Assembly (NCBI GenBank): GCA_026988515.1
Contig: JALSLA010000080.1
Coordinates: forward strand, 1-38,404
Direction of reading: 5' to 3'
Source of the DNA: Helicobacteraceae bacterium
GTDB taxonomy: Bacteria > Campylobacterota > Campylobacteria > Campylobacterales > Sulfurimonadaceae
DNA: 38,404 nt
Under the pieces are notes generated by a model, which saw nothing but the letters and a program-made list of their open reading frames with translations, had not been told where the DNA came from and made no database searches. Position numbers and translations under genes: made by a program. Below are positions 1 to 38,314 of this stretch, piece after piece; the stretch's first letter is position 1; each line of letters opens with the position of its first letter.

Positions 1-138
1 TATTTTTGTAATAGCACTGTTATTTTCACAATGTGGCGTATATGTGAATAGCCATGACACTTTGGCGACTTTTTTCAGTTTTAAGAGTAGATTTATATAA
101 ATAAATTCTTAATTTCAAAATTTTTTTTAAATTGCTCT

Positions 139-218: not shown

Positions 219-227
219 TTATTCACA
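219..227 (+). promoter_or_regulatory. DnaA-box-like word TTATTCACA
   Basis: TTATTCACA contains the TTCAC core reported for epsilonproteobacterial DnaA boxes. Two weaker words sit at 22-30 (ATTTTCACA, +) and 43-51 (CTATTCACA on the minus strand). Short words like these occur by chance in AT-rich DNA, so only their clustering beside parS makes them notable. Confidence 0.3.
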
Positions 228-305: not shown

Positions 306-1238
306 TTACAGTATTGTTTCACGTGAAACATTACTCTGCATGGCTTTTATTGCTTCATCAATAAAGGGAAAGGCACTGGTAATCGCATAACTGTTTCCAT
401 AGGTAAACTCTAATTTGTAGGCATGCAGAAGAAGTCGTGATGCACCACTTTTTCGGATACGGCTGTTGGCGGATATTTTTTTATCTAAAAATTTTACAAT
501 ATCTTTAGCTTCTTGTCCGTAAATAGGATCACCTACAATAGGATGTTTCACGTGAAACAAATGGACACGTATTTGATGTTGGCGACCGGTTAACGGTTTG
601 GCTTCAACAAGAGTTACATGATGCTTGGGATAATAGTGAAGGGGGGTGATAACTGTTTCTGAACTTTTGCCGTGTTCGTTAACGGTTACAATAGTACGAA
701 CAGAGCTACGTTCACTTTTTTCTCTGAGCAATGGGGCATTTATATGCAAACAATTTTCAACCTTGCCATGAACAAATGCGAGGTAATATTTTTGTATTTG
801 ACGCTCTTGAAATAGTATTTTGAGATCACGTTCAGACTCTTTATGTTTTGCTGCCAAAACTAAGCCGCTTGTCTCCTGATCGATTCGGTGCGTAATGTTG
901 GCATCACGACCAAACTGATAGCGAATTTCGTCTAAGAGTGAATAGGGGGTATGGCGACTTTGCGGGTGTATAAGCAGACCGCTGGGTTTGTCGAACAAAA
1001 CAAAATCTTCCGTTTGAAACAGGGGCTGCAGTGATTTGGTAATGGGTTCAAAATAGATAAATTCAAAATCTCCTTCTACAAAGCCGGCAGTGTGTGTCAT
1101 GGGCACTCCTGCTACAAGTAAACGACCTTTGGCGATGAGCCGCTGTGCCTCTTGCTGTTTATAATGGAGTTCACGTATAAGAAAAAGAAAGGCTTTTTGT
1201 TTTACGGGAGCATAAAACTTTTTTTTTACAAATGGCAC
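306..1238 (-). CDS. RluA-family 23S rRNA/tRNA pseudouridine synthase
   Basis: This 310-residue protein isomerises uridine to pseudouridine in structured RNA. An S4-like N-terminus (about residues 15-65) precedes the catalytic domain with HRIDQETSG, the RluA motif whose Asp is the nucleophile. GRQHQIRVHL and HPIVGDPIYG follow as family motifs. The start is GTG at 1236-1238 with AAGGA upstream. It is divergent from purB. Two perfect parS sites are embedded in the gene: one is read as FHVKH beside the conserved HPIVGD motif, the other as NVSRET at the C-terminus, so part of the protein sequence is probably shaped by a DNA-binding site. The exact RNA target (RluA, RluC or RluD type) cannot be told. 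A homologue sits beside purB-nrdA in Campylobacter jejuni (from memory). Confidence 0.9.
   Translation of the reverse strand: MPFVKKKFYAPVKQKAFLFLIRELHYKQQEAQRLIAKGRLLVAGVPMTHTAGFVEGDFEFIYFEPITKSLQPLFQTEDFVLFDKPSGLLIHPQSRHTPYSLLDEIRYQFGRDANITHRIDQETSGLVLAAKHKESERDLKILFQERQIQKYYLAFVHGKVENCLHINAPLLREKSERSSVRTIVTVNEHGKSSETVITPLHYYPKHHVTLVEAKPLTGRQHQIRVHLFHVKHPIVGDPIYGQEAKDIVKFLDKKISANSRIRKSGASRLLLHAYKLEFTYGNSYAITSAFPFIDEAIKAMQSNVSRETIL
315..330. promoter_or_regulatory. parS: parS site 1 (ParB binding)
   Basis: TGTTTCACGTGAAACA is a perfect 16-bp palindrome identical to the widely conserved bacterial parS consensus bound by ParB/Spo0J. It lies at the 3' end of the rluA-type gene, where it is read on the minus strand as the C-terminal residues NVSRET. 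A second identical site lies at 544-559. No parA or parB is in the window, so the site would act in trans with a ParB encoded elsewhere. Confidence 0.9.
544..559. promoter_or_regulatory. parS: parS site 2 (ParB binding)
   Basis: This is a second perfect TGTTTCACGTGAAACA, 229 bp from site 1. It is entirely inside the rluA-type gene and read on the minus strand as LFHVKH, a different codon frame from site 1 (NVSRET). Two perfect 16-mers in 250 bp is far beyond chance. Confidence 0.9.
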
Positions 1239-1340: not shown

Positions 1341-2669
1341 ATGATAGAACGTTATGCTCGTGATGAGATGAGTAGCAAATGGACCATGCAGGCAAAATAT
1401 CAGGCATGGCTTGATGTGGAAAAAGCGGTAGTCAAAGCATGGAACAAGTTAGGGTTGATCCCTGATGATGATGCAAAAAAAATTATTGATAATGCCAATT
1501 TTAATATTGAAGAGATTGATGAAATTGAAAAAACAACGAAACACGATCTTATTGCGTTTACCACTTCGGTTGCCAATACTTTAGGAGAAGAGAGCCGATG
1601 GTTTCACTACGGCATGACCAGCTCCGATACAATCGATACGGCAGTAGCACTTCAAATGAAAGATTCTTTAGAGTTGATTATTGCGGATGTTAAAATGCTG
1701 ATGGAATCTATTAAAAAAAGAGCGTATGAACATAAAATGACGTTGATGGTAGGACGTTCTCACGGTATTCACGGCGAACCTATAACGTTTGGTCTGGTGT
1801 TAGCCGTATGGTACGATGAAATGCATCGCCATTTGGAGAACCTGGAACAAACACTTGATGTTATTGCAGTGGGTCAGGTGAGTGGTGCAATGGGGAATTT
1901 TGCGCATGCTCCTTTGGAGTTAGAAGAGTATACATGTAAAGTGTTAGGGCTTAAGCCTGCTCCGGCATCCAATCAGGTCATTCAACGTGATCGCTATGCC
2001 CGTTTGGCTACAGCGTTAGCGCTTATGGCCAGCAGTATTGAAAAATTTGCCGTTCAAGTACGCCACTGGCAGCGTACCGAAGTGTATGAATGTGAAGAAT
2101 ATTTTGCAAAAGGACAAAAGGGTTCCTCGGCAATGCCACATAAACGAAACCCTATTTTAACGGAGAATATAACCGGCTTGGCACGCATGATTCGTGCCTA
2201 TGCCGTTCCGGCAATGGAGAATGTTGCCTTATGGCACGAGCGGGATATTTCTCACAGTTCGACCGAACGTTTTTGGCTTCCCGATGCTTTTATTACAAGT
2301 GATTTTATGCTGCATCGTATGAACAATGTCATTGCAAACTTAACGGTGTTTCCTAAAAATATGATGAAAAATTTAAATCTGACGGGCGGCCTTGTCTTTT
2401 CACAGCGGGTACTCTTGGAACTACCGCTTCAGGGGTTGTCCCGTGAGGATGCATACCGCATTGTACAGCGTAATGCCATGAAAGTCTGGGAGGGGCTGCA
2501 AGAGGGCAAACCGGTGCTTAATGAAGCCGGGGAGAGTCTCTATTTAGAGTATCTTTTGGCTGATGAAGAGCTACGAGAACGTTTAAGTGAAACAGAGATC
2601 CGAGAGTGTTTTAATTATGACTACTATACGAAAAATGTTGACGCCATTTTTCAAAGAGTCTTTAAATAA
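1341..2669 (+). CDS. purB: Adenylosuccinate lyase
   Basis: PurB cleaves adenylosuccinate to AMP and SAICAR to AICAR in purine synthesis. The 442-residue product has the fumarase/aspartase-superfamily signature GSSAMPHKRNP, the TSSDTIDT segment, and SHGIHGEP with the catalytic-region histidine. The ATG at 1341 is chosen because AGGA lies 8-10 bases upstream and MIERYARDEM is the normal family N-terminus. A longer in-frame reading from 1290 would add 17 atypical residues. nrdA follows 41 bases downstream on the same strand, so two nucleotide-metabolism genes may be co-transcribed. A TACATGTA core (1931-1938) lies within it. Confidence 0.96.
   Translation: MIERYARDEMSSKWTMQAKYQAWLDVEKAVVKAWNKLGLIPDDDAKKIIDNANFNIEEIDEIEKTTKHDLIAFTTSVANTLGEESRWFHYGMTSSDTIDTAVALQMKDSLELIIADVKMLMESIKKRAYEHKMTLMVGRSHGIHGEPITFGLVLAVWYDEMHRHLENLEQTLDVIAVGQVSGAMGNFAHAPLELEEYTCKVLGLKPAPASNQVIQRDRYARLATALALMASSIEKFAVQVRHWQRTEVYECEEYFAKGQKGSSAMPHKRNPILTENITGLARMIRAYAVPAMENVALWHERDISHSSTERFWLPDAFITSDFMLHRMNNVIANLTVFPKNMMKNLNLTGGLVFSQRVLLELPLQGLSREDAYRIVQRNAMKVWEGLQEGKPVLNEAGESLYLEYLLADEELRERLSETEIRECFNYDYYTKNVDAIFQRVFK
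1931..1938. repeat. TACATGTA palindrome site 1
   Basis: Core within TATACATGTAAA, one mismatch from the 12-bp palindrome. It lies inside purB and is read as Tyr-Thr-Cys-Lys. Confidence 0.6.
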
Positions 2670-2710: not shown

Positions 2711-5077
2711 ATGGTAACAATAATAAAGCGCAATGGGCGGCGTGAACAACTCGATATTTCAAAAATTCAAAAGTATACGTCAGCGGCGGTAAAAGGACTT
2801 GAAAATGTCAGTCAAAGTGAACTTGAAGTCGATGCACAGCTTCAATTCCGAGACGGCATTACCAGTAGAGAAATACAGATTACTTTAATTAAAACCGCAG
2901 TTGATAAGATTGATATTGATGCACCCAACTGGACCTTTGTGGCATCACGCCTGTTTCTTTATGACATGTACCATCGTGTTAACGGCTTTACAGGGTACTG
3001 CTCTTTGGCAAAATATTTTGAACGAGGCGAAAAAGAGGGACGTATTTTAAGTGGTCTAAAAGAGAAATTTGATCTGGAAAGACTTGATGCGTACATCTGC
3101 CCCGAACGAGATTTGCAGTTTAATTATTTGGGCATTAAAACACTTTACGATCGCTACCTTATTAAAGACAGCAAGGGTGACCCTATAGAGTTGCCGCAAC
3201 ACATGTTTATGGCAATTGCCATGTTCTTGGCACAAAATGAAAAAGATCGTGAAGGGTGGGCTATAAAGTTTTACGATATGATCTCGAAATTTGAGGTTAT
3301 GTTAGCTACGCCGACACTCTCTAACGCACGTACAACGCGTCACCAGTTGAGTTCATGTTATATTGGATCAACACCGGACAATATTGAAGGAATTTTTGAC
3401 TCTTACAAAGAGATGGCACTGCTCTCCAAGTTTGGCGGCGGTATTGGTTGGGATTGGACGCAGGTACGATCGATGGGTTCGTTTATTGACGGACACAAAA
3501 ATGCAGCCGGAGGTACGGTACCGTTTCTAAAAATCACCAATGACATTGCCGTTGCCGTTGATCAGTTGGGAACGCGTAAAGGAGCTATTGCCGTCTATCT
3601 GGAGCCGTGGCATATTGACATTAATGACTTTTTGGATCTTAAAAAGAACTCCGGTGAAGAGCGTCGTCGTGCTCATGATCTTTTTCCGGCACTGTGGCTG
3701 AACAATCTTTTTATGCAACGCGTCGAAGAAGATGCGTTATGGACTTTGTTCGATCCGTATCAGACAAAAGAGCTTACAGAACTTTACGGCGAAGCGTTTG
3801 AAACACGTTATAAAGCGTTTGAAGACGATGAGAGTATTTTAAAAGAGAGTGTGAAAGCCAAAGATTTGTGGCGTAAAATACTAACAAGCTATTTTGAGAC
3901 AGGCAGTCCTTTTTTATGCTTTAAAGACAGCGCTAACAGAGCTAACCCCAATGACCACTACGGGGTGATTCGCAGTTCCAATCTCTGTACGGAAATTTTT
4001 CAAAACACCTCCCCAAACCATTACAAGATCCAGTTAAAATTTGAAGAGGGCGATGCACTCACTTTTGAAGAAAATGAATTGGTTACCGTTGATAGCGGCA
4101 TAACCAAAGTTGCTAAAAAGGTAACGGCACTCGACTCTATCGGAGGCCGACAAATATATATTGTTGAGAAGGAGAAGGTTGACGGAGAGACGGCAGTATG
4201 TAACCTTGCTTCGGTAAATCTTTCTCGCATCAATACAAAAGAAGATATTGACCGTGTTGTTCCTATTGCAATTCGTGCGTTAGACAATGTTATTGATCTT
4301 AACTTTTACCCGTTAGAAAAAGTGAAACGTACCAATATGAAAAGTCGTTCTATCGGTTTGGGTGTTATGGGAGAGGCACAAATGTTAGCAGAATCGCAAA
4401 TTGCATGGGGTACTCAAGAACATTTTGATAAAATTGATGAGATCATGGAAGCAGTGAGTTATAATGCCATTAAAGCCTCATCCGATATTGCTCTGGAAAA
4501 AGGGTCTTACAAGGAATTTAAAGGCTCTAAGTGGAGCCGTGGTATTTTACCGATGGATCACGCCAATGCGGAAGTTGTCAATTTGGTAGATCGCGGGGGT
4601 CTGTTTGCTTCGGCATATGATTGGGACGCTTTGCGTGCTAAAATTCAAAAAGACGGAATGCGTAACGGCTATTTAATGGCTATTGCACCGACGAGTTCTA
4701 TCTCTATTCTTACGGGAACGACGCAAGCCATTGAGCCGGTATATAAACGTAAATGGTATGAAGAGAACTTGAGCGGGCTTATTCCGGTTGTGGTACCGAA
4801 GCTCAGCCCTGAGACCTGGAGTTACTATACACCGGCATATGAGCTTGATCAACGGGCTCTCATCAAAGCGGGAGCGATTCGCCAAAAATGGCTTGATCAG
4901 GGGCAAAGCCTCAATATTTTCATTACACTCGACAAGGCAAGCGGGAAATATTTGAACGATATTTACATGTTGGCATGGAAGCTGGGTGTTAAATCGACTT
5001 ACTATTTGCGAAGCGAATCGCCCGAAGTTGCTTCAGATGTACAAGATCGCTCCATGGAGTGTGTGGGATGTCAGTAA
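2711..5077 (+). CDS. nrdA: Ribonucleoside-diphosphate reductase, class Ia, alpha subunit
   Basis: NrdA holds the active site that reduces NDPs to dNDPs, with NrdB supplying the tyrosyl radical. The 788 residues begin with an ATP-cone (about 1-90). The active-site cysteine is near residue 216 (SSCYIGS), followed by the N-x-C-x-E motif (SNLCTEI) and the partner cysteine in AVCNLASVNLS. The radical-transfer pair appears in STYYLRS, and the C-terminal swinging pair is ECVGC. About 70 residues separate NLCTEI from AVCNLAS, more than in E. coli, giving an insertion I also associate with Campylobacter NrdA. RBS AAGGA lies upstream. The next ORF starts one base after its stop. nrdB is nearby but on the opposite strand. 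Confidence 0.96.
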   Translation: MVTIIKRNGRREQLDISKIQKYTSAAVKGLENVSQSELEVDAQLQFRDGITSREIQITLIKTAVDKIDIDAPNWTFVASRLFLYDMYHRVNGFTGYCSLAKYFERGEKEGRILSGLKEKFDLERLDAYICPERDLQFNYLGIKTLYDRYLIKDSKGDPIELPQHMFMAIAMFLAQNEKDREGWAIKFYDMISKFEVMLATPTLSNARTTRHQLSSCYIGSTPDNIEGIFDSYKEMALLSKFGGGIGWDWTQVRSMGSFIDGHKNAAGGTVPFLKITNDIAVAVDQLGTRKGAIAVYLEPWHIDINDFLDLKKNSGEERRRAHDLFPALWLNNLFMQRVEEDALWTLFDPYQTKELTELYGEAFETRYKAFEDDESILKESVKAKDLWRKILTSYFETGSPFLCFKDSANRANPNDHYGVIRSSNLCTEIFQNTSPNHYKIQLKFEEGDALTFEENELVTVDSGITKVAKKVTALDSIGGRQIYIVEKEKVDGETAVCNLASVNLSRINTKEDIDRVVPIAIRALDNVIDLNFYPLEKVKRTNMKSRSIGLGVMGEAQMLAESQIAWGTQEHFDKIDEIMEAVSYNAIKASSDIALEKGSYKEFKGSKWSRGILPMDHANAEVVNLVDRGGLFASAYDWDALRAKIQKDGMRNGYLMAIAPTSSISILTGTTQAIEPVYKRKWYEENLSGLIPVVVPKLSPETWSYYTPAYELDQRALIKAGAIRQKWLDQGQSLNIFITLDKASGKYLNDIYMLAWKLGVKSTYYLRSESPEVASDVQDRSMECVGCQ

Positions 5078-5457: not shown

Positions 5458-6099
5458 CTATTTCTGCACCCCGTTGACGATAGGTACAAATTTACATGTA
5501 TCCAGCTCTTCTTGTATAAGACGCGAACCTTTTTTGACATAACGGGTAATAATCTGTTTACCGTGAACTTCCATAGGAGCGACTAAAATACCGCCTTCAA
5601 CGAGTTGTTCAATCAATTTTTGAGGAATCGTATGTGCCGAAGCAGAAAAAAGAATACGATCATACGGAGCATACTGTACCCAACCGTTTTGTCCATCATC
5701 GGTTCGGGTGTGAATATTGTGAATACCCAGTGCTTTAAAGCGTGCTTTTGCTTCGATAATAAGCGGTTCAATACGTTCAATGGTAAAGACACCACGAAAC
5801 AGATGGGAGAGAACAGCTGCTTGATACCCACTCCCGCATCCTACTTCCAATACCTTATCGGCTCCTTGAGGTCGAAGATAGGTAGTCATTTTTGCGACGG
5901 TCAAGGGTGAACTGATCCATTGTTGTGCACCAATGGGCAGCGCATCAAGTTTGTAGGCATTGTGTTTAAATCCCGAAGGTACAAAGAGTTCTCGGTTGGT
6001 ACGGGCTATAGCCTCTTTAACAGGACTTTCAAGGGGAAATACTTTGTCAATTTCTTCGGCAAGTTTTAAGTTTTTCATTGCCATGATACGATTGGTCAT
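5458..6099 (-). CDS. pcm: Protein-L-isoaspartate O-methyltransferase
   Basis: Pcm uses S-adenosylmethionine to methylate abnormal L-isoaspartyl residues so that damaged proteins can be repaired. The 213-residue product has the SAM-binding motif VLEVGCGSGYQ (about residues 83-93), preceded by WISSPLTVAKMT, the family's substrate/SAM region (usually ISQP-x-TVA). Length is normal. The ATG at 6099 overlaps the stop of the upstream hydrolase as ATGA, so translation is coupled within nrdB-hydrolase-pcm. Internal Met6 or Met8 could also serve as starts. A TACATGTA core at 5493-5500 is read as Asp-Thr-Cys-Lys. Confidence 0.93.
   Translation of the reverse strand: MTNRIMAMKNLKLAEEIDKVFPLESPVKEAIARTNRELFVPSGFKHNAYKLDALPIGAQQWISSPLTVAKMTTYLRPQGADKVLEVGCGSGYQAAVLSHLFRGVFTIERIEPLIIEAKARFKALGIHNIHTRTDDGQNGWVQYAPYDRILFSASAHTIPQKLIEQLVEGGILVAPMEVHGKQIITRYVKKGSRLIQEELDTCKFVPIVNGVQK
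5493..5500. repeat. TACATGTA palindrome site 2
   Basis: Core within TTTACATGTATC, with a perfect left half. It lies inside pcm near its 3' end. Confidence 0.6.
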
Positions 6100-6830
6100 G
6101 AAATACCTACCCGCATGTAGCGGCGCATACGTTCTATTTCACGCGGCTCATACAGCATCGAGATTTTTGTTTTTGTACCGTTTCGAATCTCTTTGCCAAA
6201 TGGGGTCACAATACCGCTCTCGCCGCTAAATTCTTCATTGGAAGCATCGCTGGCAACAACATAGCACTGATTCATGATGGCAAGAGCGTTGGTAAGAGAA
6301 CGAAAGTTCTGTGCGCGGGCAATACCCCAGCGTGAAGGAACGGCAATAACATCAGCGCCTTCAAGTTGTTGCCAGAAGGTTTTAAAGCGTAGTTCAAAAC
6401 AGATGAGAATGCCCATGCGAATACCGTCAACTTCAAACAGTGTTACGGCGTTATCATCACCTGCTTTAAAGTAGTGATGCTCATCACCGAAGGTAAAGAG
6501 CTTTGCTTTGGGCCGGTTGTGGATAACCTGAGATCCGTGAAGTACTTTGGCGACATTGTACATTCCGTCGTGATCTCTTTCAATGGCGGTGAAAATAAGC
6601 GTGCGGTTATCGAGATGTTTCAGCAGCTGGGCAACGGCACGCGGGGTAAAATCGGCAGCAGCATCAAAATGAGCATAGTCATATCCGCTAAGGCAGACTT
6701 CCGGAGCAACAATAATGGCATCGTCTTCAGATTCTGTAATGCAGGTAATAAGATGCTCAAGGTTCTCTTGGTAGGAGGGTGTCGAAGCAAAACGAAGTGC
6801 AACGAGGCTTCGCGATTTAGAAGTCGTCAA
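6096..6830 (-). CDS. Carbon-nitrogen hydrolase (nitrilase superfamily)
   Basis: Members hydrolyse amide or nitrile C-N bonds with a Glu-Lys-Cys triad. Here the triad fits E44 ([11 protein letters not shown]), K108 or K110 (NRPKAKLF) and C144 ([10 protein letters not shown]). The 244-residue length fits a single-domain omega-amidase-like member; the substrate is not evident. The start is TTG at 6828-6830 inside the last codons of nrdB (14-base overlap), with AAGGAAG about 9 bases upstream; no ATG exists nearby. It sits between nrdB and pcm and is coupled to both. A metabolite-repair role would suit the neighbouring repair enzyme pcm, but that is inference. Confidence 0.88.
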
Positions 6831-7836
6831 AATTTAGGCTTCCTTTGGAGTAGTTGGTAACGGTACCTTCAAAAAAGTTGGTCTTCTGGTCGTTAAATTT
6901 GGCAAAGTCATCGACCCATTTAATGGGATGGGAGACGTTGTAGATAGGCTCAAAACCTACCGCGGTAAGACGATCATCGGCTAAATATTGAATGTACTGT
7001 TCCACAATTGCATCGGTTAATCCTAAAATCTGCCCCTGCGTAATGTATTTACCCCAGTTGCTCTCAAGCGTGACCGCCTCTTTGAACATGGCATATACCT
7101 CTTCTTTGAGTTGTGGGGTAAAGAGGTCAGGGCGTTCACGTTTTAAGGTATTGATGAGATTTTGAAAGAGCACCAAATGGGTCACCTCATCACGCTGAAT
7201 AAAGCGAATCATCTGTGCCGAGCCGAGCATCTTGCCTGATCGTGCCAGTGTGTAGAGATAGGTGAAGCCGCTGTAGAAATAGATACCTTCTAAAATTTGG
7301 TTGGCAAAACAGGCTTTCACAAAATTGTGTTCGGTCGGATTGGCAGAGAGCTCGTTGTAGACGGCGGCGATGGCATCATTTTTTGACTTAAGCATCATAT
7401 CACGACGCCACAGATCATAAATCTCTGCAGAGTTTTGCGAGATGCTGTCAACCATAACGGCATAACTTTGCGAGTGGAGTGCCTCTTCGTACGACTGGCG
7501 TACTAAAATAAGGTTAATCTCCGGTGCCGTCACATAAGGGTTGACATTGTCAATCAAGTTATTGGTTTGCAGTGAATCCATGAAAATGAGTTGGGAAAGG
7601 GCTTTGTCATAGGCGGTTTTCTCTGTTTCGGTCAGGTTTTTATAGTCATTTACGTCTCGTGTCATATCGACCTCTTTGGGGAACCACGTATTGTTGAGCA
7701 TGACCTCCCATAGATTGTATGCCCACTGGTATTTGATATTGTTAAGCTCAAAAATACCGGTTGGATTTCCACCAAAAATAGAGCGGTCATTAACGTTTTC
7801 AGTCGATTCGGGATTGTAAATTTGTTTTCTGTTCAT
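6817..7836 (-). CDS. nrdB: Ribonucleoside-diphosphate reductase, class Ia, beta subunit
   Basis: NrdB carries the diiron-tyrosyl radical cofactor. In this 339-residue protein the ligands and radical align with E. coli R2: D87 (MDSLQ), E118 and H121 in EEALHSQSY, and Y125 as the radical tyrosine. A second E-x-x-H pair is in RDEVTHL. The tyrosine is retained, so this is a conventional tyrosyl-radical subunit. AGGA lies upstream of the ATG. It leads the nrdB-hydrolase-pcm operon. Its 254-base leader region contains a perfect TTTACATGTAAA (7915-7926) and a large imperfect inverted repeat (7948-7997), either of which could bind a regulator. Confidence 0.96.
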
Positions 7837-8090: not shown

Positions 8091-8843
8091 TTAAAAAATT
8101 CCTGAAATGGAGCGAATCAGTGCCGACTCTAAGACCGGTTGCGCCTCTTCAAAATCCAAATTGACTTTATTTGCAGTGCTGACAATTCGGGTGCGATACG
8201 TTTTCCATTTGACTTTGGCACCCCGTGAGTCCTGCATCACACGGGTAGAGCTGCCCTGTTGCAGATTGGCTTGTTGGACCTGCGTAATGACTTCACCTTC
8301 GAGCGGACGTTCACGAATTTGTAAATCGGTAATCATCACATAAAGGACATCATCCACAAGCGCATCCCCGATCAAGCCCAATGCGCCGCCGATGAGGCCG
8401 GCACCGACTACGGCACGTCCGCTACTGCCCGATGCCATAGCATATCCGGCGGCGGCACCGACAACACTGCCGCCGAATCCCGACTCCAGATAGCCGTTGG
8501 CTTCGCGAAGATCCGATTTACCGACTTTTAAAATATTGCCTTGCAGCATATAGGTCGCTTCGTCGGGATTTTGCGTGATTCGGTATCCGCGTTCTTTGAA
8601 TACCGCAGCAATTTTATCTTTGATGTGCAGATCTTTGTCAGATGTGTTTCGCATATCAAAATAGATGATTTTACGATCGGGAGCAGTCGGTTCCAAAAAG
8701 ACCGTTTCTGACATTTTGGTTTGAACATCCAGATCTTTTTTCTTAATAGCGGTATGCATGGCACTACAGCCACTCATGCTGAGCATGAGTGTAGCCAAAG
8801 CAGCCGTAAAAAGCAGGGTTCGTATGTGTGTTATGCCTAACAT
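8091..8843 (-). CDS. TraT-family complement-resistance/surface-exclusion-like lipoprotein
   Basis: The 250-residue product has a lipoprotein signal peptide ending in SMSGC, with the acylated cysteine at C26. The mature start SAMHTAIKKKDLDVQTKMSETVFLEP is typical of TraT (outer-membrane lipoprotein of F-like plasmids, involved in surface exclusion and serum resistance). A glycine/alanine-rich hydrophobic hairpin follows in the middle (about 125-165), also a TraT feature. No transfer genes are nearby, so this is a chromosomal homologue likely acting in the outer membrane. GAGGAATC serves as RBS. It is divergent from the DUF748 gene across 166 bases. Confidence 0.85.
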   Translation of the reverse strand: MLGITHIRTLLFTAALATLMLSMSGCSAMHTAIKKKDLDVQTKMSETVFLEPTAPDRKIIYFDMRNTSDKDLHIKDKIAAVFKERGYRITQNPDEATYMLQGNILKVGKSDLREANGYLESGFGGSVVGAAAGYAMASGSSGRAVVGAGLIGGALGLIGDALVDDVLYVMITDLQIRERPLEGEVITQVQQANLQQGSSTRVMQDSRGAKVKWKTYRTRIVSTANKVNLDFEEAQPVLESALIRSISGIF

Positions 8844-35433: not shown

Positions 35434-36228
35434 ATGAACATAATAAATATTAATTCAGATATCACCATTACACCATCTCAAAAATCGTTTATTGAAGAGG
35501 TGCTGTTTTGTGGAGATGACCATCACAGGATTGACGAGGATTCGTTTTATTGCCTGTCAAAACGCATTCCTCTATTTTTACTCAATGAAGAGAGCATGAG
35601 AAAAAATGAACGTAAAAAAGAATATAGGTATGAACCTAACGATGAAAGAAGACCGTCAACAGAGTGGTTGGGATTTTACGGAAGAGACAGTTACGGACTT
35701 TTCGAACATACCCCAAGAATTGCCATATGCCCGGAAAGAATAGCAAGCTGTGTCAAAAATGATGAAGAATTTATGTTTTTATTGGCAAAAGTCATTGTTC
35801 ATGAATTTGCCCATGCGAAACTGGATTATCGAGATGACAATGTAAAATACCGTAAAAAAGATGAATTTTGGCATTGGATGGAAGAGTCTATGGCCAATCA
35901 GCTTACATTAGAAGTTTTTAGAGACTTTTCAAGAGGATATCGTCATTACAAATACCAAAAAAGCAGCTTTAGGTCTAAAAGCTGGGAAGACACTCTCTTT
36001 GATTTTGTTGTAGATTTTGTAAAAAAACAACCACCGGCATATGCTTTAGGTTACGAGTTGTTTGACAAAAGAATTTGGAGATGGTGGACCTGGAGAATGC
36101 ATAAAGATGACCTTGGCGGCCAAAAAAGAATCCAACAAAAAAACAGTTGGTTACAGTATGTACAAAGCAATTATCGAAATATTGATGAAGAGCAAGCAGA
36201 AAAACTATATGATGAGTTGTTTAAGTAA
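35434..36228 (+). CDS. Predicted zinc metallopeptidase-like protein (gluzincin-type motif)
   Basis: The 264-residue protein has HEFAH (H123, E124, H127) in a hydrophobic helix, then WMEESMAN 21-28 residues on, where E151 fits the third zinc ligand in the style of M1 peptidase WLNEGFA. This makes it a candidate small cytoplasmic metallopeptidase. There is no signal peptide or membrane segment. The N-terminal part is charged with paired cysteines (C26, C40, C99, C106 region); the C-terminus is Trp/Lys-rich. AAGGAG precedes the ATG. It is AT-rich in codon use compared with genes left of 35 kb. The family is not recognised. It leads a plus-strand cassette ending at an insertion sequence. Confidence 0.65.
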   Translation: MNIININSDITITPSQKSFIEEVLFCGDDHHRIDEDSFYCLSKRIPLFLLNEESMRKNERKKEYRYEPNDERRPSTEWLGFYGRDSYGLFEHTPRIAICPERIASCVKNDEEFMFLLAKVIVHEFAHAKLDYRDDNVKYRKKDEFWHWMEESMANQLTLEVFRDFSRGYRHYKYQKSSFRSKSWEDTLFDFVVDFVKKQPPAYALGYELFDKRIWRWWTWRMHKDDLGGQKRIQQKNSWLQYVQSNYRNIDEEQAEKLYDELFK

Positions 36229-36243
36229 TAAGGTTTCGGTATA

Positions 36244-36257
36244 TGAACAGTTGTTCA
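36244..36257. promoter_or_regulatory. Operator-like palindrome upstream of the nuclease-like gene
   Basis: TGAACAGTTGTTCA is a 6-2-6 perfect inverted repeat, 16 bases after the peptidase stop and about 190 bases before the next start. It could bind a repressor or form a small hairpin; no U-tract follows, so a terminator is unlikely. Confidence 0.4.
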
Positions 36258-36443
36258 CATACAGCTGCCCAATAGATTTTATACTTGACATCATGGAGAA
36301 CAGAGTTTTATCCATCGGTGAATAGTTTTTATACTCTCTGTTTGCGTTACAAAAAGTTGCATAGGGTACAATGTGTTTAGAAAATAAATGGATGGAAAAA
36401 GTTGTCTTAAATATTCAGGGCATTATACGCCTAAGGAGATGCA

Positions 36444-37220
36444 ATGAGCATAAAAAGGCTATTAATACTGTTCTTATTGCTTATTGCTATAGCCATACCG
36501 CAAGCAAACGCATTTTTTGGATTTTCTACAAAAGCAATATCGGCAATATCAAAAAATGTAAAAGTATTAGCTGAAGATGAAATCATCAGACTGTCTAAAC
36601 TTTCAGATGAAATTCAAGGTACAAAAAAGGTTGGTAAAGAACTCGGTAAGTTGAATTTGCCTGATGATGTTCTTGAAGATGTATTTATACGAATAGCTAT
36701 CTACCAAAAAAAAATAACACGAGTAACCGCAGAAAGAATGTTTTCAAGGCTAAGCAATGTCCCTGGGTTTCGTCATGCTTTAAGGAAAATAGTGGGTAAC
36801 AGCAATATTGGAACGGTTGGACATCTCAATGAATTGAAAATTGCCGATGCCGCATCTGCGAATGGTTTCAAAGTTAGGGAAATTGGTGAAAAATTTATAG
36901 ATGGGTTAAAAAAAGCACCGACAGATATTGATATTTTGCTAGAAAAAGGCGGTAAGTTATTTGCTGTCGAGGCTAAAAGTTATGCACTGACAACAAAAAT
37001 CTCAATGGATAAATTCAGGGCTGATCTTGATACGTTAGTTGCTTACAAAAATATGAAGGGTGATACGATTATTCCAGTCTTCACAATAACAAATAAACCT
37101 TATGATCTAAGTTACCTAAAAAGGTTGCATTATGAAGCTAACAAGAGAGGAGTAGAGCTTATTTTTGGGAAACCTCAAGAGCAGATTGAGCAAATAAAAA
37201 TGCTAGAAAGTATATTATGA
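36444..37220 (+). CDS. Exported PD-(D/E)XK nuclease-like protein
   Basis: The 258-residue product has a classic signal peptide (RLLILFLLLIAIAIPQANA, cleavage about residue 23). The C-terminal half carries a restriction-endonuclease-like core: E130 in GHLNELKIADAASANGFKV, D161/D163 in APTDIDILLEKGG, then E176-A-K178 in KLFAVEAKSY, giving the D...ExK metal-binding pattern. Export of such a fold is unusual, since PD-(D/E)XK enzymes normally act in the cytoplasm. The linker (30-115) is helical. AAGGAG lies upstream. Its last codons overlap the next gene's ATG by 4 bases, so both are made together. It could act on incoming DNA in the periplasm or be a secreted toxin; inference only. Confidence 0.65.
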   Translation: MSIKRLLILFLLLIAIAIPQANAFFGFSTKAISAISKNVKVLAEDEIIRLSKLSDEIQGTKKVGKELGKLNLPDDVLEDVFIRIAIYQKKITRVTAERMFSRLSNVPGFRHALRKIVGNSNIGTVGHLNELKIADAASANGFKVREIGEKFIDGLKKAPTDIDILLEKGGKLFAVEAKSYALTTKISMDKFRADLDTLVAYKNMKGDTIIPVFTITNKPYDLSYLKRLHYEANKRGVELIFGKPQEQIEQIKMLESIL

Positions 37221-38314
37221 AGCTATGTGTTGCGTTATTAGTAGTGCTAAGTACTTTTCCTGATACTTTATTGGCAGCAACTGAATACGCGACCTTTGAA
37301 TCTTTTTACAAGGAATCCTCTACAGTTGGCTGGATTTTAGCTGGGGTAGTAGCACTCATCGCCGGTGCAGTAATTGTTTTTACAGCTGCTGCAGCCAGTC
37401 CAATTGTCATTGGTATCGGCTCATGGATTGGTGGAATGATGGGATTGTCAGGTATTGCAGCCACGAATACTGGGTTGGCACTGCTCGGGGGCGGCTCAAT
37501 TGCATCTGGTGGCTTTGGCATAATTGGCGGAACGGCGTTGTTAACTGCTGCTTTATCATTTGGAACCGATATTGTATTTGATTACACCATCGGTAAAGCT
37601 GTCAGTGCATATAAATATAGCAACCTAACAGAGCATAGCAAAAAGATGCCAACACTCCCACTGCCTATCAATGATTCTGGACCGGGTGCATATGAAAGCG
37701 CAATGGAGGTTTTAAAAGGAATAAACGAAGAATTGCCAATATATTCTACGTATAATCAAAAAGCGATACGTCGAGCTATAACAGTATTAGAAAGCAGTCA
37801 AGATGCTCCAGATATAGATGAGCAAGCAAAAAATAGTTCATTACTGTCGTTATTAAATTTTGTATCAAATGACTATGTGAAAGCAAAAAAGTTTGCACGT
37901 TTAGCTATAAATTCTGCTAGAGAGTCGGAAATCAAAAGAACTCTCCCTGCTTTTATTTATGCAGCGAGTTCACTGTATGAAGAGGACTTTGATTTTACAT
38001 CAATCACAAAGAATTATTTTCGGTATTCAATATTAGCAGAACCAGATAACCCATTAATCCCCGTGTTATTCTCCATATATTTAGATAGGATGTTCCTTCG
38101 TTTTAATGATGGTTATTTAGATGAAAAATCACTTAATAGTATTTTCAATATAATGCAGTCGCCTTCGATAGTAGATGATAGAGTCTTGAATTATACAGTT
38201 TTACTATCAAGATATTTTATTCGTCTTAAGCTGGAACAACAAAAAATAGCTTCATTATCAAATTCATCAAACGAAACAAGGGCATCTCTAAAAACTCCCA
38301 ATAACCATCCCTAA
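37217..38314 (+). CDS. Glycine-zipper membrane protein coupled to the nuclease-like gene
   Basis: The 365-residue protein has a signal peptide (1-20), a hydrophobic stretch (about 37-68) and a glycine-rich hairpin-like segment (69-130; IGSWIGGMMGLSGIAA, LLGGGSIASGGFGIIGG), resembling small-residue-packed pore or membrane-inserting modules. Residues 135-345 are helical and soluble-looking, perhaps TPR-like, with a polar tail. The family is not recognised. The ATG overlaps the upstream stop. The pairing with an exported nuclease-like protein suggests a joint envelope function (anchor, channel or delivery). The tail may have been altered by the adjacent insertion sequence, 39 bases downstream. 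Confidence 0.6.
   Translation: MKLCVALLVVLSTFPDTLLAATEYATFESFYKESSTVGWILAGVVALIAGAVIVFTAAAASPIVIGIGSWIGGMMGLSGIAATNTGLALLGGGSIASGGFGIIGGTALLTAALSFGTDIVFDYTIGKAVSAYKYSNLTEHSKKMPTLPLPINDSGPGAYESAMEVLKGINEELPIYSTYNQKAIRRAITVLESSQDAPDIDEQAKNSSLLSLLNFVSNDYVKAKKFARLAINSARESEIKRTLPAFIYAASSLYEEDFDFTSITKNYFRYSILAEPDNPLIPVLFSIYLDRMFLRFNDGYLDEKSLNSIFNIMQSPSIVDDRVLNYTVLLSRYFIRLKLEQQKIASLSNSSNETRASLKTPNNHP

Follow-up and report, generated by a model that had tools for sequence, protein, structure and literature searches.

In chromosomal ParABS systems, ParB is loaded at the centromere parS as a CTP-dependent clamp, spreads from there and is moved by ParA. A parS site may also lie within coding sequence, as in Bacillus subtilis, in which one is situated inside the spo0J gene. 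Known chromosomal parS sites, in the survey of Livny et al. (2007) as relayed by PMC8242196 and PMC6275241, share a 16-bp consensus, occur in few copies and lie near the origin, and, as summarized in PMC8242196, approximately 75% of the species that bear parS have it no farther from ori than 5% of the genome. The existence of parS, its consensus, its proximity to the origin and its presence inside genes are thus already known, and parS sites are usually viewed as short marks that can change place without constraint in the vicinity of the origin; in the present case, one seems to have been kept at fixed codons of an unrelated enzyme gene across much of an order. On the basis of sequence comparisons, we hold with high confidence that two 16-mers in the DNA described below are the chromosomal parS (that is, the centromere) of a ParABS system approximately 1 kb from dnaA, and that the internal one of the two is ancient, spread across the order and written over the peptide that the gene would otherwise encode.

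A candidate centromere in an enzyme gene

The window (that is, the whole 38,404-nucleotide stretch of DNA that was analysed) contains two exact copies of the 16-bp parS palindrome TGTTTCACGTGAAACA, which is perfect and has a CACGTG core, at positions 315–330 and 544–559 (229 bp apart; neither is assigned a strand). Both lie in one gene on the minus strand (306–1238; 310 amino acids), the product of which belongs to the RluA-type pseudouridine synthases, given a match to PF00849 (PseudoU_synth_2) of 107.6 bits against a gathering cut-off of 26.8 and the presence of the HRID and TGRxHQIR motifs. Its score against TIGR00005 (172.7 bits) falls under the cut-off of 192.7, and the assignment stops at the family, short of a particular RNA target. 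The site at 544–559 (site 1) is well inside the gene, directly after the conserved TGRQHQIRVHL motif, and is read as (L)FHVK(H), whereas that at 315–330 (site 2) covers the final codons (the stop is at 306–308) and is read in a different frame as NVSRET, with VSRET as its core.

When up to three mismatches were allowed, these two were the only parS matches in the window (0.23 expected from shuffled sequence). The draft genome comprises 1.99 Mb in 97 contigs and is 97.8% complete; across all of it there were again two exact copies, both at this locus, and none with one or two mismatches; the remaining 15 matches each had three mismatches, a number close to the 13 obtained with a reversed-pattern control, and 0.0006 exact copies per genome would be expected from base composition by itself. 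The pair is therefore rare and clustered in the genome, and the genome-wide scan rules out a chance repeat as its origin. The first-pass annotation, made from the window sequence, had reported two perfect 16-mers at these positions, read in different codon frames (NVSRET and LFHVKH), and both coordinates and frames proved exact; it had also named a common and scattered 16-mer as the outcome that would count against parS, and the 16-mer was found at this locus only.

The neighbours of the host gene include purB (adenylosuccinate lyase; 1341–2669, plus strand) and nrdA (ribonucleotide reductase alpha subunit; 2711–5077, plus strand), and this rluA/purB/nrdA neighbourhood is retained in relatives. 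Elsewhere in the window, two genes lie between nrdA and nrdB (6817–7836, minus strand), which is on the opposite strand, a TraT-family lipoprotein gene occupies 8091–8843 (minus strand), and three open reading frames without any Pfam match fill the right end (35434–38314, plus strand), where GC content falls and GC skew rises.

Distance to the replication origin

The window (1–127, no strand assigned) and another contig of the same assembly (C19), which carries ruvC, dnaA and dnaN, begin with 127 bases that are reverse complements of each other without mismatch. Shared ends of this kind number 27 in the assembly, as expected of a k = 127 graph, and the 127-mer was not found in any other of the contig ends read (a set that excludes the 3′ ends of C95 and C96). 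The joined order is purB, rluA with both parS sites, ruvC, dnaA and dnaN, in which the parS sites end approximately 1.0 and 1.2 kb from the start of dnaA. A relative of the same genus (L078; JAJRVF010000093.1) has the same order on a single contig, with parS at 4996 and 5226, ruvC at 5652–6128 and dnaA at 6234–7553. Given the 127-bp overlap and this contig order, we link the parS pair to dnaA at a distance of approximately 1 kb, a figure that in the draft genome rests on the assembly overlap and the contig of the relative. An assembly repeat as the source of the overlap was considered and rejected, given the absence of the 127-mer elsewhere among the ends read and the order seen in L078.

Proximity to the origin extends to the relatives: the distance between the internal site and dnaA could be measured in 49 genomes, which represent five families, and ranges from 1.3 to 69 kb, or at most 3.4% of the chromosome. 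The region ruvC–dnaA–dnaN is a typical site of Epsilonproteobacterial origins (PMC6052347), and a perfect match to the Epsilonproteobacterial DnaA box consensus given in the same paper, TTATTCACA (219–227, plus strand), lies between parS and ruvC–dnaA as a candidate box identified by sequence match. GC skew is positive along almost all of the window, consistent with an origin beyond its left end; the skew is weak near the origin in another genome (G095) and is not decisive. The window had been proposed to be origin-proximal in part by comparison with Campylobacter jejuni, in which the rluA-type, purB and nrdA genes lie approximately 20–25 kb from dnaA. The proposal agrees with the inferred distance of approximately 1 kb to dnaA, and the C. 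jejuni distance with the family that we take to be Campylobacter-like (f10), in several genomes of which the internal site is 20–26 kb from dnaA. A second Bac_DnaA match of the genome (G000:C63, L018) looks like an IS21-type ATPase beside a transposase, not a second dnaA.

ParB and ParA partners

The genome encodes one ParB (a PF02195 match) with an adjoining ParA open reading frame, and the best match of this ParB in the PDB is 4UMK, the Helicobacter pylori Spo0J–parS complex. Mapped by hand to Caulobacter numbering, with the NKSR...N and SAGHAK motifs as anchors, its specificity residues are K171, S172, R173, N178 and G201. R173 and G201 are absolutely conserved in ParB and are replaced by Q and R in Noc (Jalal et al., PMC7383237); a cognate ParB with residues of the parS type, together with a ParA, is thus present. 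Match to the consensus, uniqueness, origin proximity and type of the cognate ParB together support the earlier reading of the 16-mers as putative parS.

Conservation of the internal site

We searched the order (398 genomes) for a parS pattern read as FHVKH-P-I-x-G. It was present in 218 genomes, which belong to 33 of the 85 genera, and its column in the alignment is identical for at least nine families (f1, which is that of the genome studied here, f3, f5, f6, f9, f10, f17, f19 and f21). The question raised at the outset of whether related genomes keep parS within this gene can thus be answered in the affirmative, and at the same codons. In the same 398-genome search, the internal site was not found at these codons in f8, f13, f14, f15, f16 and f22 (on the basis of gene order, we label f8 Arcobacter-like and f13 Helicobacter-like, as we do f10 above), and the internal position is therefore not required in the order. 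Parsimony on a tree built without the motif columns needs 7 changes, compared with 20 for shuffled labels, a pattern compatible with early gain and several losses.

Sites also occur in other genes. In the Arcobacter-like f8, parS is read as VSRETK in a KpsF/KdsD-like gene and as DVSHET in an iron–sulfur subunit resembling that of succinate dehydrogenase/fumarate reductase (genes named by eye; loci L021, L027, L038 and L030, L036, L048), each kept among several genomes. A perfect parS within purB of L075 (G311; 1501–1516) is read as GVSRETAY, which is presumably near the usual PurB motif GVSRE[DE]AY and would be another enzyme motif that fits parS.

The second site is more labile. Of the further sites found in 54 distinct f1 loci, 7 lie in the codons of the same gene, 20 are placed at its stop or immediately beyond it, 5 lie a short way upstream and 3 are more distant but within approximately 1.5 kb; 21 loci have none in that range, several of which have one 3–4 kb away. 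In same-genus relatives, site 2 is at the same place with one or two mismatches, at or after the stop. A further in-gene parS at gene offset 477, near codon 160, is read as HVSRET in the f1 loci L049 (G307), L051 (G308) and L053 (G317); in L049, from which the central site has been lost, it is accompanied by another site at offset 930. Several genomes of the genus g6 carry the pseudouridine synthase gene as a tandem duplicate, with a parS-like site, TGTTCCACGTG[AG]AACA, at the same codons of each copy (G260:C2:2354025-2355850 and G127:C71:42203-44035; also G335, G411, G429 and G434), such that the second parS seems to arrive with the duplicate gene. Given the distribution in f1 and the g6 duplicates, the internal site is best described as fixed and its partner as the one that moves.

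Codon usage at the internal site

Among parS-bearing orthologs, the Val codon of the site is GTG in 117 of 117 (21% expected) and the preceding Leu codon is NTG in 113 of 113; of the 134 columns that could be tested, these two show the strongest bias, whereas the adjacent Pro (CCN), Ile (ATH) and Gly (GGN) codons vary freely. The figure of 117 of 117 is biased, as many loci outside f1 were gathered by their DNA pattern; we therefore repeated the test with loci chosen by protein search alone, which removes the bias for f1 and a few others. In this sample, parS-like codons occur in each of the 32 orthologs with FH[VM][KE], and Val is encoded by GTG in 28 of 28 cases (15% expected), such that circularity through selection of the parS-like pattern can be rejected. 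Two variants, CAC to CAT (synonymous) and GTG to ATG (protein-changing), amount to a single parS variant, read from one strand or the other. Selection therefore acts on the DNA sequence: synonymous positions in the internal site are invariant and their neighbours vary. Orthologs without the site mostly read x-S-I-G-H at this loop, and the losses within parS-bearing families read IGH or IDH (L049 in f1, L211 in f6, and L214 and L218 in f17). Given that FHVK is always spelled as parS, that site-free orthologs have SIGH and that the losses read IGH or IDH, the DNA site shapes the protein, and the internal parS appears to dictate part of the peptide of the enzyme.

Alternative explanations

A regulator other than ParB, for example a Noc-like protein or a local transcription factor that acts on rluA or purB, might instead recognize the palindrome. 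The 16-mer is indeed a perfect palindrome with a CACGTG core, and our survey covered ParB/Noc-type proteins; however, the sole protein of this type in the genome has R and G at the positions at which a Noc that recognizes a Noc-binding site (NBS) would have Q173 and R201, and two copies within codons near dnaA, and not at a promoter, fit parS and not a promoter operator. We consider this reading very unlikely. Slightly less likely still is that the pair is a relic (that is, parS by sequence, with the working centromere elsewhere). The families f8, f13 and others that lack the site in this gene do indicate that the position can be given up, but a genome of this completeness offers no other site with two or fewer mismatches to take over the role, and a site free of selection would decay within a few substitutions.

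The least likely reading is that FHVKH is kept for pseudouridine synthase function and its identity to parS at the DNA level is incidental. The FHVKH site does follow the conserved TGRxHQIRxHL motif of the family and the surrounding protein is conserved, yet codons inside the site are invariant while adjacent ones are saturated, FHVKH with scrambled synonymous codons occurs in 0 of 32 orthologs, the second copy is read differently, as VSRET in a frame of its own, and the enzyme can do without FHVK, as the xSIGH of site-free orthologs and the IGH or IDH of the four loss loci attest. The earlier argument that protein constraint fails to explain the repeat accordingly holds up, on the strength of invariant codons in the site, free neighbours and loss lineages without FHVK.

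Proposed model and its implications

Returning to the preferred reading of a parS pair, we infer ParB binding, clamp loading and segregation at this locus. ParB would load at parS as a CTP-dependent clamp and, once loaded, would spread over the flanking genes, and ParA would move ParB, with the origins separating just after being copied. The internal site would be an ancient, order-wide parS fixed at a single place in the codons of a gene of the RluA family and the second its movable partner, and selection on the internal DNA site appears to have written FHVK over the xSIG of site-free orthologs. An additional and unlikely possibility is that the centromere has been kept in the gene because the coupling is useful, either through control of synthase expression by ParB at the internal parS or through an effect of the FHVK loop on the enzyme; if true, origin segregation would be linked to RNA modification or translation.

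The hold on the internal site would be strong enough to replace residues that adjoin a conserved motif of the enzyme, and the more usual residues are seen in genomes from which the site has been lost. The locus thus offers a clean natural experiment on the shaping of a protein by a DNA-binding site. In Sulfurimonas-like and Campylobacter-like bacteria, it may also serve to map the centromere and, as a fixed tag, to label the origin.

Relation to known systems

Searches of the open literature on parS in a pseudouridine synthase gene, on Cj0022c and on parS in Campylobacterota returned nothing relevant, and that literature, which does not include Livny et al. (2007), yielded no description of a parS kept at fixed codons of a pseudouridine synthase across an order. 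Within this scope, only the order-wide conservation at fixed codons looks new.

The closest solved relative of the ParB of this genome is the H. pylori Spo0J, the structure of which was determined bound to parS; the family that we take to be Helicobacter-like (f13) differs in having no site at these codons. In the B. subtilis case, the host gene encodes ParB itself, whereas here it encodes an unrelated RNA-modifying enzyme. With chromosomal parS of ParABS systems in general, the locus shares the 16-bp consensus, the few copies, the position near the origin and a cognate ParB and ParA, and it differs in that one copy is locked at the codons of an enzyme gene across the order and appears to alter the protein.
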